This document shows positions 16,404 to 24,480 of a stretch of DNA of 64,000 nucleotides, one piece after another (within the stretch, counting starts at the first letter, position 1; every line of letters begins with the position of its first letter). The stretch covers positions 32,874,427 through 32,938,426 of the forward strand of contig OX031065.1 of assembly GCA_943736015.1 (NCBI GenBank). The letters are read 5' to 3'. Position numbers and translations under genes: made by a program. Source of the stretch: Tridacna crocea. Its lineage: Eukaryota; Mollusca; Bivalvia; Cardiida; Cardiidae. The notes under the pieces were generated by a model that saw only the letters and a program-made list of their open reading frames with translations, searched no databases and was not told the origin of the DNA.

Positions 16404-18400
16404 TCTTTTTTCGCTCTACTGGCTTTCAGCCAGCAGAGCTTATGTCATGGCATGGTTTCCATCCTTCCATCCGTCTGTTTGTCCGCTTTCAGCCAGCAGA
16501 GTTTATGTCATGGCATGACATGGCATGGTGTCTGTCTTGCACAGTTTGTTTACCTCATCAATAGCTTTAACTTTATTGATTTTGAAAAAAAATCTGACAA
16601 ACAATATGGGAAAAGTAGCCATTTCAAGTTTAAAATTTCCATTTCTTGTTTATGTGATAAAGTGTGTCCTTGTGGTCAGATTTCCATGAAATTTGCAGCG
16701 TTTGTTCATATTATCAATAGCTTCAACCCTATTGATTTTGAAAAAATCCAACAAATGGTATTTGAAAAGTAGCCATTTCAAGTTGAAAACTTTTTTTTTT
16801 CTTTTTTATACGCCCGTCGAAGACGGGACGTATTATGGGATCACCCGTGGCGGGTGGGCGGGCGTCCGGGCGGGCGGGCGGCGTCCAGTTCTTTGTCCGG
16901 AGCATATCTCCAAAACTATACAAGCTAGGGTTATGAAATTTCATGGGTGGATAGATCTTATTGAGGCGGAGTGCAGTGCACAGGAATCATAACTCTTGCT
17001 TGCTTAATTTTTGAGTTATTGCCCTTTGTTGTTTTTCATACTTGAATTTTGTCCGGAGCATATCTCCAAAACTATACTAGCTAGGGTTATGAAATTTCAT
17101 GGGTGGATAGATCTCATCAAGGGGGAGTGCAGTGCACAAGAATCATAACTCTTGCTTGCTTAATTTTTGAGTTATTGCCCTTTGTTGTTTTTCATACTTG
17201 AATTTTGTCCGGAGCATATCTCCAAAACTATACTAGCTAGGGTTATGAAATTTCATGGGTGGATAGATCTCATTCAGGGGGAGTGCAGTGCACAAGAATC
17301 CTAACTCTTGCTTGCTTAATTTTTGAGTTATTGCCCTTTGTTGTTTTTCATACTTGAATTTTGTCCGGAGCATATCTCCAAAACTATAGTAGCTAGGGTT
17401 ATGAAATTTCATTGGTTGATAGATCTCACTGAGGGGGAGTGCATTGCACAAGAATCATAACTCTTGCTCGCTTAACTTTTGAGTTATTGCCCTTTGTCGT
17501 TTTTTATACTTGAATTTTGTCCGGTGAATATCTCCAAAACTATACTAGCTAGGGTTATGAAATTTCATGGGTGGATAGATCTCACCAACGCAGAGTGCAG
17601 TGCACAGGAATCATAACTCTTGCTTGCTTAATTTTTGAGTTATTGCCCTTTGTCGTTTTTCATACTTGATTTTTGTCCGAAGCATATCACCAATACTATA
17701 CTACCTAGGGTTATGAAATTTCATGGGTGGATAGATCTCATGGATGGGGGGTGCAGTGCACACAAATCACAACTCTTGCTTGCTTAATTTTTGAGTTATT
17801 GCCCTTTGTTGTTTTTCATACTTGAATTTTGTCCGGAGCATATCTCCAAAACTATAGTAGCTAGGGTTATGAAATTTCATGGGTGGATAGATCTCACTGA
17901 GGGGGAGTGCAGTGCATAAGAATCATAACTCTTGTTTTCTTAATTTTTCAGTTATTGCCCTTTGTCATTTTTTATACTTGAATTTTGTCCGGTGAATATC
18001 TCCAAAACTATACTAGCTAGGGTTATGAAATTTCATGGGTGGATAGATCTCACTGAGGCGAAGTGCAGTGCACAGGAATCATAACTCTTGCTTGCTTAAT
18101 TTTTGAGTTATTGCCCTTTGTCATTTTTCATACTTGATTTTTGTCCGAAGCATATCTCTAAAACTATACTAGCTACGGTTATGAAATTTCATTGGTGGAT
18201 AGATCTCATCAAGGGGGAGTGCAGTGCACCGAAATCACAACTCTTGCTTGCTTAATTTTTGAGTTATTGCCCTTTGTTGTTTTTCATACTTGAATTTTGT
18301 CTGGTGCATGCCCCAGCTTTACAACTTGGGGTAAGACGGGCGTATCTTGCGACAATTTGCCACTCTTGTTATGTGATAAAGTCTGCATTTTTGGTCTGAT
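16404..18400 (+). mobile_element. HINE (GCTCTACTGGC family), interrupted
   Basis: The head CGCTCTACTGGCTTTCAGCCAGC begins near 16411; a second head-like block CTTTCAGCCAGCAGAGTTTATG follows near 16489. Body units contain ATTGATTTTGAAAAA and AAGTAGCCATTTCAAG. The body stops near 16800 at a T run and resumes at 18370 with ATGTGATAAAGTCTGCATTT. It is then cut again at about 18400 by the next HINE. Related copies: 21560-22490 (minus) and 47580-48291. Confidence 0.65.
16803..18369 (+). mobile_element. HINE (TACGCCCGTC family) with a 156-bp tandem array
   Basis: Head TATACGCCCGTCGAAGACGGG; tail AAGACGGGCGTATC..CCACTCTTGTT, so TACGCCCGTC and GACGGGCGTA are subterminal inverted repeats. The interior is nine units of exactly 156 bp (starts 16895, 17051, 17207, 17363, 17519, 17675, 17831, 17987, 18143, ending 18298). 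Each contains CATATCTCCAAAACTATA and GAGTTATTGCCCTTTG. Near-perfect spacing without indels suggests recent array growth. Confidence 0.8.
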
Positions 18401-19290
18401 TTTTAGCTCCACTGGCCGAAGGCCAGCGGGCTTATGTCATGGCCCGGTTTCCGTCGTGCGTCCGTCTGTCTGTGCATGCGTCCGTCCGTCCGTTGGTCCG
18501 TCCGTGCGTGCCTTAACTTTTATTTCAAACATCTTCTCTGAAACTACCCGTCCAATTTTGATGAAACTTCACAGAAATGATCCTGCCATGGTCCTCTTCA
18601 GAATTCCTTGAAAGAATTTTATTCCTTCAAAAACTCTGGTTGCCATGGCAACAAAACTGAAAAATATTGAAAATTTTTAAAAATCTTCTTCTCTGAAACC
18701 ATAAGGCCTAGGGCTACCAAATTTGGCATGTAGCTTTATCTAGTGGACCTCTACCAAGTTCCTTCAAATATTAGCCCTGGCGTCAAAATTGGCCCCACCC
18801 CGGGGGTCACAAGTGTTATATGGGCTTATATAGGGAAAACTTTAAAATCCTTCTGGTACCTAGCCATAGGGCCTAGGGCTACCAAATTTGGCATCTAGCT
18901 TTATCTAGTAGACCTCTACCCAGAGTGCCCAAATGATAGCCCAGAGGTAAAATTTGGCACGGCCCCGGGGGTCACAAGTTTTACACGGGCTTATATAGTG
19001 AAAACTTTAAAAATCTTTTCGTACCAAGCCATAAGGCCTAGGGCTACTCAATTTAGCATCTAGCTTTATCAAGTGGTTGTCTACCAAAGGTGCCCAAATT
19101 GTAGCCCTGGGGTCAAATTTGGCCCTGTCCTGGGGGTCACAAGTTTTACCTAGCATTCTCCCTAAGAATCATGCAGGCCCTGTAGAAATGGTGATAAGTG
19201 ACTTTTTCAGAATACCAAAAAAACTTAGTGCAATTGATTCCTTAAGTCACAAAAGTTCAAAAGCCAAAGGGAAACTTTTATTGTCATGCT

Positions 19291-20045
19291 GTTACCATGG
19301 CAACGGCTACAGAAAGTTTTTGCCCCCAGAAACATTTTTTTTGCTTTTTAAAACTTGAAAAATGAAGCACTTTGAAGTTAATGCAGCATATTTGTCACAA
19401 GAAGTCCAGTGAGTTGTACTATTAAAACATAATCACCCATGTATTGGCTTACAATATAAAATATGCTATAGCAAAAATAAGCTTGCAGAATGTGTTTCTA
19501 TGGCAACGAACAAAGGCTGTATTTCGCATTTCTGCTGGTGGCTTAAATTGACAAATTTCTATCTCAATTATCTCCTAACAGCAAAGCTAAGATTTAAGGT
19601 TTCAGTATTGGGCATAAAGACTAATGTATTGGGTTACAAATAAAAAAATAAAAAAGGTCAAAATGTTTTTAGGTCAGGATACCATGGCAACCAAAGTGAC
19701 AACAGATTTGTAAAATTTGGAAAATGCTGTATTTTATGCAAAAAAATGACCACTAAACACAAATATTTGAACATCAGTTAATATGACATATGAAGTATTA
19801 ATACAAATTTGAAAAGCTGCAAACAAGATATTTTGGTTTTGTGTCTAAATTTGGTTTCCATGGCAACCTGAATCTGGACACTGGCATAAAATTGCAATTT
19901 TTGCTTATTTTTATGGCATAGTTGTTGAGACTAGGGTAAATAGATGGAATAACTTTTGTTTTAGATATAGCTATTGATCTAACATGTTGTCGATGAAAAA
20001 ATAAGAATAAGCATATCATATCATACACTAGGTAACCATGGCAGC
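19291..20045. promoter_or_regulatory. X-box-like array, left half
   Basis: Matches to the RFX-type palindrome GTTGCCATGGCAAC start at 19291, 19493, 19678, 19854 and 20032, spaced 202, 185, 176 and 178 bp. The right half-site (ATGGCAAC) is the better conserved. RFX factors bind GTNRCC..RGYAAC; binding here is inference. Confidence 0.5.
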
Positions 20046-20161
20046 CAAAGTGGCAATGTATCGGTAAAATTGAGAAAATACCATTATCTGTTGAATATAA
20101 TGAACAACAATTAAGAATCTTCATACCCCTCTATATATGGTTCATGGCATGTCAGTTTCAT

Positions 20162-20396
20162 TAGCTCCACTGGCAGAAGGCCAGCGGGCTTATGTCTTGG
20201 CCAGGAATCCGTTTTGCATCCGTGTGTCTGTCCGTGTGTATGTGTGTGTGTACATGCGTGCATATGTTAAATTTTATTTCAAACATCTTCTACTCTAAAA
20301 CTACCCATCCAAATTTGATGAAACTTCACAGAAATGGTCCTACCATGGTCCTCTTCAGAATTTTTTAGAAAGAATTGTATTCCTTTAAAAACTCTG
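20162..20396 (+). mobile_element. HINE head fused to the X-box repeat
   Basis: The head AGCTCCACTGGCAGAAGGCCAG begins at 20163 and the HINE body runs to AAAACTCTGGTTTCCATGGCAAC (20389-20410). From the CCATGGCAAC onward the sequence is a second copy of 19854-20160. The X-box is the join. Confidence 0.65.
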
Positions 20397-20715
20397 GTTT
20401 CCATGGCAACCATAATCTCAACATTGGCATAAAACTGCAATTTTTGCTTATTTTCAAGGCATAATTGTAGAGACAAGAGTAAGTAAACTGAATAATTTTG
20501 GTTTTAGAAATCGCTATTAATCTAATGTGTTGTCCATAAAAAATAACAATGAGCATATCATACCATACTCCAGGTTACCATGGCAGCCAAAGTGGCAACA
20601 TATAGGTAAAATTGAGAAAATACAATTACCTATCAAATAGAATGACCAACCATTAAGAATGTTCTTACCCCTCTATATATAGTTCATAGCATGATAGTTT
20701 TCATTCAAAAAGTAG
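20397..20715. repeat. Second copy of the 19854-20160 X-box unit pair
   Basis: Co-linear similarity with 19854-20160 (GCATAAAACTGCAATTTTTG, CCCCTCTATATAT). X-boxes lie at 20397 and 20574, 177 bp apart. Together with 20162-20396 it forms a direct repeat in which the HINE head is the spacer. Confidence 0.7.
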
Positions 20716-20717
20716 CA

Positions 20718-21240
20718 TACATGCTAATTATCCCCCACCAAAACGGCGGCTAGGTATATGGTAATAGTAGCCATCCGTCTGTCCGTCCATTTGTCTGTCC
20801 ATTCTTCCTTCATTCTGTCTATCCGTGTTCGCATCCCAATTTCTTGTGTGAAGCACAACTCAAAAACTATTTGAGATATAAACATGAAACTACACAGATC
20901 GATAGATCTCATAAAAGAGAAGTGCAGTGCATAAGAACCATAACTCTTGACTGCATATTTTAAGGGTTATTACCCTTTATTTTCTCACTTAAATTTTGTC
21001 TAGAGCGTAACACAAAAACTATATGAGGGATAAACATGAAACTTCACAGATGGATAGATCTCATCAACGAGAAGTGTGGTGCATAAGAAACATAACTCTT
21101 GATTGCATAATTTAAGAATTATTGCCCTTGATATTTTATTTTCCATACTTCAATTTTGTCTGGAGATGAAATAACTTCACAGCTGGATAGTTGTCTCTGA
21201 GGAGAAGTGCAGAACACAAAAAGGGTAACACTTCCTTTCA
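20718..21240 (+). mobile_element. HINE-like fragment (CCCCCACC head)
   Basis: A CCGTCTGTCCGTCC run is followed by two or three units of about 150 bp (AACTCTTGA.TGCATA, AAACATGAAACT..CACAGATGGATAGATCTCAT). These are distant relatives of the 156-bp units at 16895-18298. The 3' end is not found. Confidence 0.5.
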
Positions 21241-21559
21241 TAATATTCTATTCACAGCTCTCCGTCGTTTTGTATTTAGTATTTCCCAAAAACAATTCTT
21301 CAATCTGACTGTCAAATTGCTCTACTGGTACTGACTTTATTTTTTTGCTAGCATCCGCTATAAACTCATGATGCAAAACGAAAAAAGGCAAAACACACAC
21401 AAAAAAAGGGGGGATGTTATTACAACTGCCCTTCAGCCCACTAAGAAGATGGTGAATTGAACAATGAGTGAAAAAAATGAAGTGCAATTTCTGAAAAAAA
21501 AAAATTTGGAAATCCAACCAAATTTGATAGGGTTTCAGTACACCTTGAATTAAACAATC

Positions 21560-22490
21560 CTAGCAAATTTCAAAGAAAACAACAAATAAGGTTGACTTTG
21601 TTACGTAAGCAATTCTAAGTTATCAAATGGCTGCTTTTCCTGAACAGATCAGTAGATCTTCTTCACTCTTAATAGGGCTCAACCCCTTGATGAACCAAAC
21701 AATTTTTTAATGTTTCAAAAAGAACTGGATCGAAACTGTGGACTTCACTGCCTAACAAGAATTGGAAATTTTCAACTTTAAGTGGCTATTTTCCCATACC
21801 CACACATTGTTTGTTGGATTCTTTGTAAAACCAATATGGTTCACGCTATTGATGGGATAAACAAAACTGTGCAAGTTTCAAAATAATCTGATACCAAATG
21901 GACACTAAATCACATACACAAACAATGGAAAATTTTCCTATACTGTAAGGACTTTTTTTTCGAAAATCAATAGGATTGAAGCTATTGATGAGATTAACAA
22001 ACCATGCAAGATTTACGAAAATCTGGCCACAAATGCAGACTACATCGCGTAAAGAAGCAATGGAAATTTTCAACTTTAAATGGCTACTTTTCCCATAATA
22101 TTTGTTGATTTTTTTTTCCAAAATCAATAGGGTTGAAGCTATTGATGAGATAAACAAACTGTGCAAGTTTCACAAAAATCTGGCGACAAATGCAGATTTT
22201 ATCGCATAACCAAGAAATGGAAATTCTCAACTTCAAACAGCAAATGGACATTTTCAATTTCAAATGGCTACTTTTCCTAAAATGTTTGTTGGATTCTTTT
22301 TTTTTTCAAACCAATAGGGTTAAAGCTGTTGATGAGATAAACAAACTGTGCAAGTTTCACCAAAATCTGACAACAAATATAGACTTTATTGCGTAAACAA
22401 GAAAAAGACTTACAGACAGAGAGACGATGGAAACCATACCATGATATACATTGTAAGCTCTAGTAGCTTTCAGCCAGTACAGCTAAAAAT
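21560..22490 (-). mobile_element. HINE (GCTCTACTGGC family), minus strand
   Basis: Reading the minus strand, the head AGCTGTACTGGCTGAAAG starts at about 22486. Four or more units follow with CTTGCACAGTTTGTTTATC and CAATAGGGTT-complement blocks. The 3' end is decayed near 21560. Confidence 0.6.
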
Positions 22491-22503
22491 CACTGCTGAT
22501 TTG

Positions 22504-24120
22504 GTAACCATGGTTACTTGTTTAAGAAGCAATTAAAGCATTTCCTTTAAGGTATTTGGTTTATTAAAATGCTTTCAGAACTCATGAAATACTCACTAGT
22601 CAATGGAAGATACTTTGCACTGACTTTGCTATATTTTATGGGAATGAGTTTACTGTTCTGTTGCCATGGTAATATTTTCTTTTTCTGAAGTGTTGAATAC
22701 CTTTTATCTTTTGTATGTGCATAACACAAATTAGTCATTTAAAGTATGTTTAATTTATTCAGATGCTTCTTAGCTGGAAGGGGTTAATTTGCTTTGAACA
22801 AGCTGTTATTTGTGATGGTCATGATTTGGTTGCCATGGTAACATGATTAGACCATTATTTTTTTCTTTTACATTTTAATATTGACAAACAGATGTGGGTA
22901 ATTTAAGTAAGTATTACTTATCAATGTAATCCTTTGTTAATGGGCTGTCGTTTACTTCGAATGTGCTGAGTTTTGTTAAAATTGCAAACTGTTGGATAGC
23001 TTGGTTGCCATGGAAACTAATATTTGGATTGTTGCAGAACTTGATTTTGTCTGTATTAGTTGAACAGGTGTGGATCCATTTAATACATAAATACACTGTT
23101 AATATTTTTCCTAGCAGAAGGGAGATAATTTGCTCTAAAATTGCCACTTTTTTGTAAAATCTCTGACAGGTCAATAGTTTTGTTGCCATGGTTACAAAAA
23201 TTATTAAGATTTTGAGTTTTTTCATTGCTGACTGTGAAAAATCAGATGTTGCTCATTTAGGCACTATATGCATTTTTCATATGCACCTTTGCTGTTAGTA
23301 GATAATTTGGCTTGAAAATCTTCAAAATTTGAGGTTTGAAAAACTGCTTTCTATGGCTAAACTTCTGTTGCTATGCAACACAATGCAAGTGACATTTTAT
23401 ATTTTTCTATATTTTCCTATGTAATTTTGAGTACTACTCTTGCCATCCTTTTGACATAAGTAGTAGAATAGATAATCTAAAAGGGCAGTAGTTTACTTTG
23501 AATGTGCTGATTTTTGTTAAAATGGCAAACTGTTCGATAATTTAGTTGCCATAGTAACTAATATTTGGATTGTTGCAGAACTTAAATTTTTCTCTATTGG
23601 TTGAACAGAAGTGGATTATTTAATATTTATATACACTGTTCATATTTCTCTTTGCAGAAGGGAGATAATTTGCTTTGAAATTGACACTTTTTTGTAAAAT
23701 CTTTGACGGTTCAATAGTTTTGTTGCCATGGTTACAAAAATTAAAAACATTTTGAGTTTTTTTATTGTTGGCTCTGAAAGATTAGATATTGCTCATTTAG
23801 GCACTGTTAGTATTTTTCATATGCACCTTTGCTGTTAAAAGATAATTTGGTTTGAAAATGTTAAAAATTGGAAGTTTGAAAAACTGGTTTCTATGGCTAA
23901 ATTTCTGTTGCTATGCAACACAATGCAAGTGACATTTTTCATTTTTCTATGTAATTTCCAGTAGTACTCATGTCCTCCTTTTAACATAAGTATTAGTATA
24001 GATAATCTAAACAATAACGATTTGTCAAAAACCACCCTGAAAAGTGTCATTTTTCTTTTTTTTGCCGACAACTTTTGACCAATCTCTGTGAAATTTTTAT
24101 TTCTCGTTTCCATGGCAACC
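22504..24120. promoter_or_regulatory. X-box-like array, right half
   Basis: Matches start at 22504, 22660, 22829, 23004, 23182, 23368, 23545, 23722, 23908 and 24107, spaced 156, 169, 175, 178, 186, 177, 177, 186 and 199 bp. Here the left half-site GTTGCCAT is the better conserved, opposite to the left half. 22941-23482 and 23483-24002 are a direct duplication with a period of about 540 bp, equal to three X-box units. Confidence 0.55.
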
Positions 24121-24480
24121 ACTGTCAGAAAAAGGGAATGCTTTGTTTTGGGACAGTTTTTCAACAAGTCCGATTAAATGAAGGTAAAACCAATGAATTC
24201 TGTGACTAGTCACTTATCACCATCTGCATGATTCTTAGGGAGAATGCTAGTTACATGGGCTCATATTGGGAATTTTTTAAAAATCTACTTGTACCTAGCT
24301 ATAAGGCCTCGGGGTACCAAATTTTGCATGTAGCTTTATCTAGTGGGCCTCTACCAGGAGGGCCCAAATTATAGCCTTAGGGTCAAGTTTGTCCACTCAC
24401 CAGGGGTCACAAGTTTTACATGGGCTTTTGTGATGAAGACTTTCTAAGTCATCTTGTTACTAACCATAATAAAGACTAGG

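Follow-up and report, generated by a model that had tools for sequence, protein, structure and literature searches.

A TTAA-preferring transposon and its internal segments

Positions 19150 to 24250 of the window (the whole 64,000-nucleotide stretch of Tridacna crocea DNA analysed here) are one copy of a TTAA-preferring, non-autonomous cut-and-paste transposon with 27-base inverted termini (TIRs). Its boundaries and internal segments are as follows.

19150 to 24250, no strand assigned: TIR transposon in a form of about 5.1 kb, non-autonomous and with no evident coding ORF; recognised by its TIR pair and its copies
19146 to 19149, no strand assigned: left target-site duplication, TTAC
24251 to 24254, no strand assigned: right target-site duplication, TTAC
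19150 to 19176, plus strand: left TIR YTAGCATTCTCCCTAAGAATCATGCAG, with weaker similarity on to about 19203
24224 to 24250, minus strand: right TIR
20161 to 20410, plus strand: fragment of a HINE-like repeat family (family A) that starts near the family's 5' end and extends as far as its X-box, within which it meets the array
20711 to 21150, no strand assigned: inner segment, shared with copies L069 and L074; from 20836 onward it is related to the 156-bp tandem array at 16892-18309
21151 to 22624, no strand assigned: segment holding site 22504; the shorter copies L069 (4.15 kb) and L074 (3.8 kb) lack it
22939 to 24011, plus strand: tandem duplication of a three-monomer block of about 540 bp, 86% identical, with more copies in L069 and L072

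Genome-wide, 220 and 214 ends of the TIR (YTAGCATTCTCCC) were counted, for about 200 copies, and among the ends listed those on contigs C1-C4 were paired into copies. The 4-mers flanking the copies are identical on both sides in 21 of 25 pairs (TTAA in 17, ATAA or TTAC in 4) and unequal in the other 4, one copy being entered twice in this count (L018/L050 and L072). Inverted termini and target duplication at many dispersed copies place the element among the TIR (cut-and-paste) DNA transposons, and on this point the preliminary description, which had named a TIR element, was correct. No ORF longer than 110 aa lies within 19150-24250. Candidates for a coding or autonomous copy were rejected: two copies of 8.1-8.6 kb have no long ORF (longest 104 and 136 aa), no autonomous partner was found among the 118 genome-wide matches to the piggyBac domain PF13843, none of the 11 such matches on C1-C3 falls inside a listed TIR pair, and the PF13843 locus examined, L075, is without the TIR of this element. 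The transposase presumably comes in trans from a partner.

The internal segments had been taken for nested insertions; they are instead inherited parts of the family, present in other copies. Similarity of the family A fragment to 18403-18652 ends at the last base of the motif, while similarity of the array to 19852-20162 starts at 20395, and this junction is inherited by all 38 copy rows read there.

The phased array and the conservation of its motif

The body of the element carries the following motif sites.

19291 to 19304, minus strand: X-box-like site GTTACCATGGCAAC, stronger half right
19494 to 19507, minus strand: X-box-like site GTTTCTATGGCAAC
19678 to 19691, minus strand: X-box-like site GATACCATGGCAAC
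19854 to 19867, minus strand: X-box-like site GTTTCCATGGCAAC, where the 19852-20162 duplication has its left edge
20032 to 20045, minus strand: X-box-like site GTAACCATGGCAGC
20397 to 20410, minus strand: X-box-like site GTTTCCATGGCAAC, belonging both to the family A fragment and to the array that resumes there
20574 to 20587, minus strand: X-box-like site GTTACCATGGCAGC, halves tie
22504 to 22517, no strand assigned: palindrome GTAACCATGGTTAC, the sole 14-mer site of 15 with 7/7 dyad pairs intact
22660 to 22673, plus strand: X-box-like site GTTGCCATGGTAAT, stronger half left
22829 to 22842, plus strand: X-box-like site GTTGCCATGGTAAC
23004 to 23017, plus strand: X-box-like site GTTGCCATGGAAAC
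23182 to 23195, plus strand: X-box-like site GTTGCCATGGTTAC
23367 to 23379, plus strand: variant 13-mer GTTGCTATGCAAC, not matching the published X-box consensus
23545 to 23558, plus strand: X-box-like site GTTGCCATAGTAAC
23722 to 23735, plus strand: X-box-like site GTTGCCATGGTTAC
23907 to 23919, plus strand: variant 13-mer GTTGCTATGCAAC, fitting no published X-box consensus
24106 to 24119, minus strand: X-box-like site GTTTCCATGGCAAC, the only site with the stronger half outward

All 17 sites of the preliminary description are present, with small corrections of position (19494 rather than 19493, 24106 rather than 24107, and 23367 and 23907 rather than 23368 and 23908). Fourteen of the 17 lie within 3 mismatches of GTTGCCATGGCAAC, site 22504 is off by 4, and the two 13-mers are not 14-mers at all. 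In 2000 dinucleotide shuffles of the element there were at most 3 sites within the same limit of 3 mismatches (mean 0.25), against the 14 found. With the central interval between sites 20574 and 22504 set aside, 14 of the 15 gaps between consecutive sites measure 156-203 bp (mean 180 bp, sd 11.5) and the remaining gap, of 365 bp, spans the inserted fragment. In 100,000 random placements the regularity of the ten right-hand sites was never reached, and that of the first five left-hand sites was reached 35 times. Number and spacing thus exceed shuffled and random controls, and all six further copies read at full length keep between 4 and 16 sites within 3 mismatches, the copy with 4 being a 1.2-kb deletion form. 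The phased array is confirmed, and neither outcome that the preliminary description had named as contradicting it occurred. From the spacing of about 180 bp that description had suggested that an RFX-like factor may sit once per nucleosome; satellite monomers are often about 180 bp long, and the spacing is probably inherited through common descent of the monomers.

The two arrays, left and right, are inverted arms of opposite direction, and they align with each other only in patches no longer than about 50 bp. The motif itself is asymmetric, one half being at or near GTTGCC and the other weaker, and with ties excluded the stronger half points to the centre at 12 of 13 14-mer sites, from both arms. 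Identity among 12 independent monomers is 0.82 inside the motif versus 0.31 in the ungapped flanks, and gapped flanks are no different from shuffled ones; monomers 20397, 20574, 23545, 23722 and 23907 were excluded from this comparison as recent duplicates. These values uphold the earlier statement that the flanks have diverged far more than the motifs. The array body consists of two opposed arrays of old monomers of about 177 bp that are recognisably alike only in the 14-bp motif.

Conservation among copies was evaluated on 68 projected rows, in which three genomic copies are repeated (L065/L066/L069, L018/L050/L072 and L062/L071). Tree-based counting gave 20 steps in the right-arm motifs versus about 50 expected by base composition with CpG left out (4 of 1737 shifts as low), and 23 versus about 31 in the left arm, where 338 of 1309 shifts were as low. 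Among copies the motif is therefore constrained in the right arm and not significantly in the left. Raw column divergence had given 1 of 1737 shifts as low for the right arm and 67 of 1309 for the left; tree-based counting reduced the left-arm constraint to non-significance.

The motif in other repeats and its candidate reader

The 1.05-Gb genome contains 17,995 perfect motifs, where the base composition of the window predicts 1.3 and a control palindrome of the same composition occurs 0 times. Sites with exactly one mismatch number 9,847, or 0.55 times the perfect ones; a motif drifting at the pace of the family A flanks should give about 1.8 times. All 12 sampled perfect motifs lie inside family A and not in the TIR element family. 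Family A has a GTCC-type microsatellite and a tandem array. Flank searches located it at 60 places, from which we dropped L001-L004 (chosen by motif), L005:995 (a duplicate of window 18639), the 38 rows of the 20397 junction and 6 motif-less inner units. In the 11 copies used the motif deviates at 1 of 154 positions versus 145 of 1297 in the flanks (17 times less; p 1e-6), and after removal of the three copies that were sources of the flank queries the values for the other 8 are 1 of 112 versus 82 of 948 (10 times less; p 0.001). Two further repeat families, C and D, carry motif pairs; their unrelatedness was judged by eye on 80 letters per site, and that of family A and the TIR element by BLAST within the window.

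Because several families share the motif, we infer that a host protein, rather than a transposase specific to this element, reads it. The preliminary description equated the palindrome with the RFX/X-box consensus. The resemblance holds, but of the published consensus forms (PMC2375033) the loose one, RYYNYY N1-3 RRNRAC, is matched by only 10 of 17 sites, GYTRYY N1-3 RRHRAC by 9 and the strict RTNRCC N1-3 RGYAAC by 6, the 13-mers fitting none. Matches to the RFX DNA-binding domain PF02257 number 9 at the exon level, spread over about 7 places in the genome; the host therefore has an RFX factor and no transposon spreads it, so that a transposon-borne, amplified RFX domain was rejected. RFX2-knockout male mice are reported to be sterile (PMC4745085), and RFX7 is reported to be among the factors raising transposable-element expression most in mouse cells (PMC13144441); among the papers listed, the 14-mer is written out in two, both dealing with cilia.

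The explanation that we tentatively favour is that host RFX binds the motifs, and the likeliest reader would be an RFX winged-helix factor. In cells in which RFX is at work (ciliated cells, testis), RFX dimers along the body could keep the element active or accessible, which might make it more readily mobilised. The motif is present and slow-evolving in family A and paired in two more families, which speaks for RFX. Against it stand the incomplete fit to the X-box consensus and the left arm's lack of significant constraint among copies, and it is not obvious why a cut-and-paste element with its transposase in trans should need a transcription factor.

The main rival, itself unlikely, is palindrome-guided recombination, with the palindrome as a break-and-join point at which arrays grow, shrink and swap segments, a role already suggested for palindromes and conserved motifs of other satellite DNAs; the motif would then be conserved through its use in rearrangement by a recombinase or by short homology. 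The family A fragment does meet the array inside a motif. Elsewhere a 12-bp palindrome holds 13 of 16 junctions of Ruditapes phBglII400 and a conserved palindrome lies near the repeat junction of Donax DTC84 (PMC5139131), and nematode satellites that are 32-64% identical share a CENP-B-box-like motif, conserved motifs being termed obligatory at monomer junctions (PMC3694981). However, the junction here is a single one, inherited by all 38 rows, the edges of the 540-bp duplication lie about 65-100 bp from motifs, and the junctions of BIV160/Cg170 and DTHS3 were found unlinked to conserved motifs in the same study (PMC5139131). Recombination would also leave unexplained the consistently unequal motif halves and the slow motif of family A, in which each sampled element has a single motif next to the array.

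Multiple internal or subterminal binding motifs are known from other transposons, and the motif could accordingly be an internal site for the element's own transposase or for an accessory protein of its autonomous partner, as the inward orientation of the strong halves would allow. This we consider less probable again, since the motif also occurs in family A, HINE-like in the look of its left part with microsatellite and array, and in two other families, and the 8-kb copies and piggyBac-domain matches yielded neither long ORFs nor a partner. No better placed is the view that the motif is a passive relic of an old satellite monomer, surviving by chance or low mutability and functionless today. 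Several sites have drifted off consensus and the left-arm motifs lack significant constraint among copies, as a relic would; the contrast of motif and flanks among the 12 monomers, the slow family A motif and the deficit of steps in the right arm all argue against it. A structural palindrome, signalling as cruciform or hairpin in replication, packaging or nucleosome placement, would suit the perfect dyad of most family A copies and of site 22504 and a spacing near the nucleosome repeat of about 180 bp, but it is very improbable, and a hairpin-type use is disfavoured: of the 15 14-mer sites 14 have dyad pair 4/11 broken, and among copies (18 to 37 rows per site) the break is present in every row at 13 of these and in 35 of 36 at the other.

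The motif occurs about 18,000 times, for the most part in other repeats among the sites sampled, and mobile DNA may thus be recruiting an RFX-like switch. A broader reading, possible but doubtful, is that several unrelated mobile families independently gained and keep an RFX X-box and supply nearly all perfect RFX sites, and that the TIR element went furthest, with an inverted, phased landing array that would be mobilised by exploiting the ciliary or testis programme and might also rewire that programme. If RFX binds, one genome would hold about 18,000 perfect sites for a cilium and sperm regulator, largely in mobile DNA as sampled, and one transposon would consist mostly of such sites. Such a system would let one test clearly whether transposons use conserved satellite motifs to recruit a host factor, and it could explain why molluscan satellite-bearing elements have conserved boxes and palindromes.

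Comparison with known systems

Among the literature matches listed, as represented by titles and abstract openings, none describes a transposon or satellite with an array of RFX sites, and the earlier statement that no transposon of this layout has been described is not contradicted there. Pig SINEs are a published case of RFX sites in a mobile family, the sites of three RFX family members being reported as amplified; they are mammalian retroposons, and the excerpt mentions no phased array (PMC10471783). The CENP-B box of alpha and nematode satellites is likewise a short motif fixed in diverged monomers (excerpt of PMC3694981), whereas here the motif is another, RFX-like one within a dispersed transposon. 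Bivalve Cg_HINE/Helentron elements and the pearl family (CvA, DTC84) are mobile, with short satellite-like arrays and one or two conserved boxes, and family A resembles Cg_HINE in its GTCC-type microsatellite and array layout (excerpts of PMC7492417 and PMC5139131). The TIR element differs from the HINE/pearl type in its TIRs, its 4-bp TTAA-type duplication, its two opposed arrays and its about 17 motifs instead of a single motif next to a more homogeneous array. HINE/Helentron elements are characterised by subTIRs, a left-flank microsatellite, a tandem array and a palindrome at the 3' end, of which the microsatellite and the array were seen in family A. They have no terminal TIR with target duplication, and this assignment was rejected for the TIR element on both features.

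Piggybac-type TTAA MITEs share the TTAA duplication of most pairs, the inverted termini and the lack of coding capacity. PiggyBac ends are of CCC type, whereas the element starts with YTAGCATTC, its duplication is not strictly TTAA and a matching transposase was not found among the PF13843 matches. Foldback-type elements have inverted arms built of tandem repeats, as here, but the present arms align only in the short patches described and the TIR is short. The RFX X-box (EF-C/MDBP) is, like the motif, a 14-bp imperfect inverted repeat with GTTGCC/GGCAAC halves; it is known mainly as a single promoter or enhancer site, and here its likeness stands in phased arrays and in thousands of repeats.

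Motif array of the TIR element

The preliminary description had placed 17 motifs, phased at about 177 bp, inside a TIR element, and the element itself was confirmed.

19150-24250: TIR element, bounded by 27-base TIRs and the 4-base duplication TTAC
22504: diverged palindrome GTAACCATGGTTAC
23367 and 23907: 13-base variant of the motif
22779, 23120, 23297, 23660 and 23837: a further box (GGGAGATAATTTGCTTTGAA-like), conserved in the stretches that separate right-arm motifs

Complementarity of the TIRs is 97% over 30 nt, with three flank bases counted in. A search of the 1.05-Gb genome using a 25-base TIR query (up to three mismatches allowed) detected 220 forward and 214 reverse sites, and a reversed-TIR control query gave no match there. 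Among the matches listed (100 rows, contigs C1-C4) the ends mostly pair, with spans of 1.2 to 8.6 kb that by eye cluster mostly near 4.15, 4.7, 5.1 and 5.6 kb. Best-match copies share 95-99% identity with the copy in the window across their aligned parts, and seven loci with other forms of the element share 90-94%. Flanking 4-mers were identical in 21 of 25 pairs of TIR ends, one copy being entered twice, and TTAA stood on both sides in 17/25. Many piggyBac-domain genes of the assembly have open frames of about 490-670 aa (e.g. C18:19006660, C10:12637330) and are possibly active transposons; some score equally at several places.

Analysis of the 17 sites retained 14 within three mismatches of GTTGCCATGGCAAC, as opposed to a mean of 0.25 in shuffled sequence, the site at 22504 being diverged and two others 13-base variants. 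The phasing was upheld over 14 of 15 gaps (mean 180 bp). The left-hand array has the opposite orientation to the right-hand one. The motif halves are unequal at 13/15 14-mer sites, one being nearer GTTGCC, and this stronger half points to the element centre in 12 of the 13 (exception 24106). A hairpin role is unlikely because the dyad is broken without compensation.

Conservation of the motif

As previously noted, the motifs have diverged far less than the intervening DNA, with ungapped identities among 12 independent monomers of 82% and 31%, respectively. Gapped flank identity was 0.616 versus 0.618 with shuffled flanks; the alignment score was 37.5 versus 34.7, and therefore a trace of common monomer descent may persist in the flanks. 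Inverted patches (39-52 nt, 71-79%) link some left and right monomers, and the further, GGGAGATAATTTGCTTTGAA-like box is repeated in several right-arm monomers. Conservation among copies was evaluated as parsimony steps on a tree, comparing motif columns with shifted positions. The right arm required 20 steps in 140 motif columns versus 521 in 1625 other columns, with 4/1737 shifts as low. Left-arm values were 23/98 versus 365/1239, and motif constraint there was not significant (338/1309 shifts as low).

The motif in other repeat families

Family A is a separate motif-bearing, HINE-like repeat family.

Window 40310, 41258, 44285, 44619, and genome loci L022:1002, L038:3212: inner 166-bp family A units without the motif
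C1:66225161, C2:7278493, C6:17467421, C7:54879709, C13:47003893: further family, 5 places
C16:36.8-38.0 Mb (4), C5:43562402, C8:56967833, C10:2374099: further family, 7 places

In family A the motif is preceded by a GTCC-type microsatellite and followed by a 166-bp tandem array, like the layout described for the bivalve element Cg_HINE (PMC7492417). The repeat types are consistent with a bivalve genome. The flanks of its inner units resemble those of the motif-bearing unit, with the motif absent (6-9 mismatches). Across 11 flank-located copies, 1/154 motif positions deviated versus 145/1297 flank positions; three of the 11 had served as flank queries, and without them the values were 1/112 and 82/948 (p 0.001). 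Family A anchors occur 7,466 times in the genome, and 76 of 100 anchor rows among the matches listed carry the perfect motif. Conversely, family A context surrounds 8/8 perfect motifs in the window and 4/4 genome sites read (the first on C1).

The genome contains 17,995 perfect motifs versus 1.3 predicted from window base composition; a compositionally matched control palindrome is absent from it, and the related GTTACCATGGTAAC occurs 83 times versus 4 predicted. Allowing one mismatch raises the count to 27,842, or 0.55 singly mutated per perfect site with the element's own sites included, where about 1.8 would be expected had the motif drifted as family A flanks. Motif pairs number 470 at 164-194 bp (by eye, 49 TIR element and 1 family A among 50 matches listed) and 16 at 114-144 bp, of which 4 are family A and 12 belong to the two further families. 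Both carry two X-boxes, with starts about 142 bp apart on opposite strands in the 5-place family (GTTACCATGGTAACCATTGTCTC... and GTTGCCATGGCAACCATTTTATT...) and about 120 bp apart in the 7-place family, which has 4/7 places in a stretch of about 1.2 Mb on C16.

A candidate reader and the junction at the motif

The sharing of one slow-evolving 14-mer by several families points to a host protein that reads it. The winged-helix factor RFX is the natural candidate, since the motif has the inverted-repeat form of RFX sites (PMC2375033; PMC5838959) and RFX domains are encoded at about 7 places in the genome. Against RFX, 7/17 sites fall outside a loose published consensus, the one used for Drosophila promoters. 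Links between RFX and transposable elements have been published for mammals (PMC10471783, PMC13144441).

20161-20410: family A fragment in the array, its family A match running to the motif's last base

At this fragment's end array similarity restarts at the first motif bases, and the junction is common to 38/38 rows read there. The junction inside the motif resembles the motif- or palindrome-centred joins described for some satellites of bivalves (PMC5139131) and nematodes (PMC3694981), although PMC5139131 also describes satellites in which junctions and motifs are not linked.
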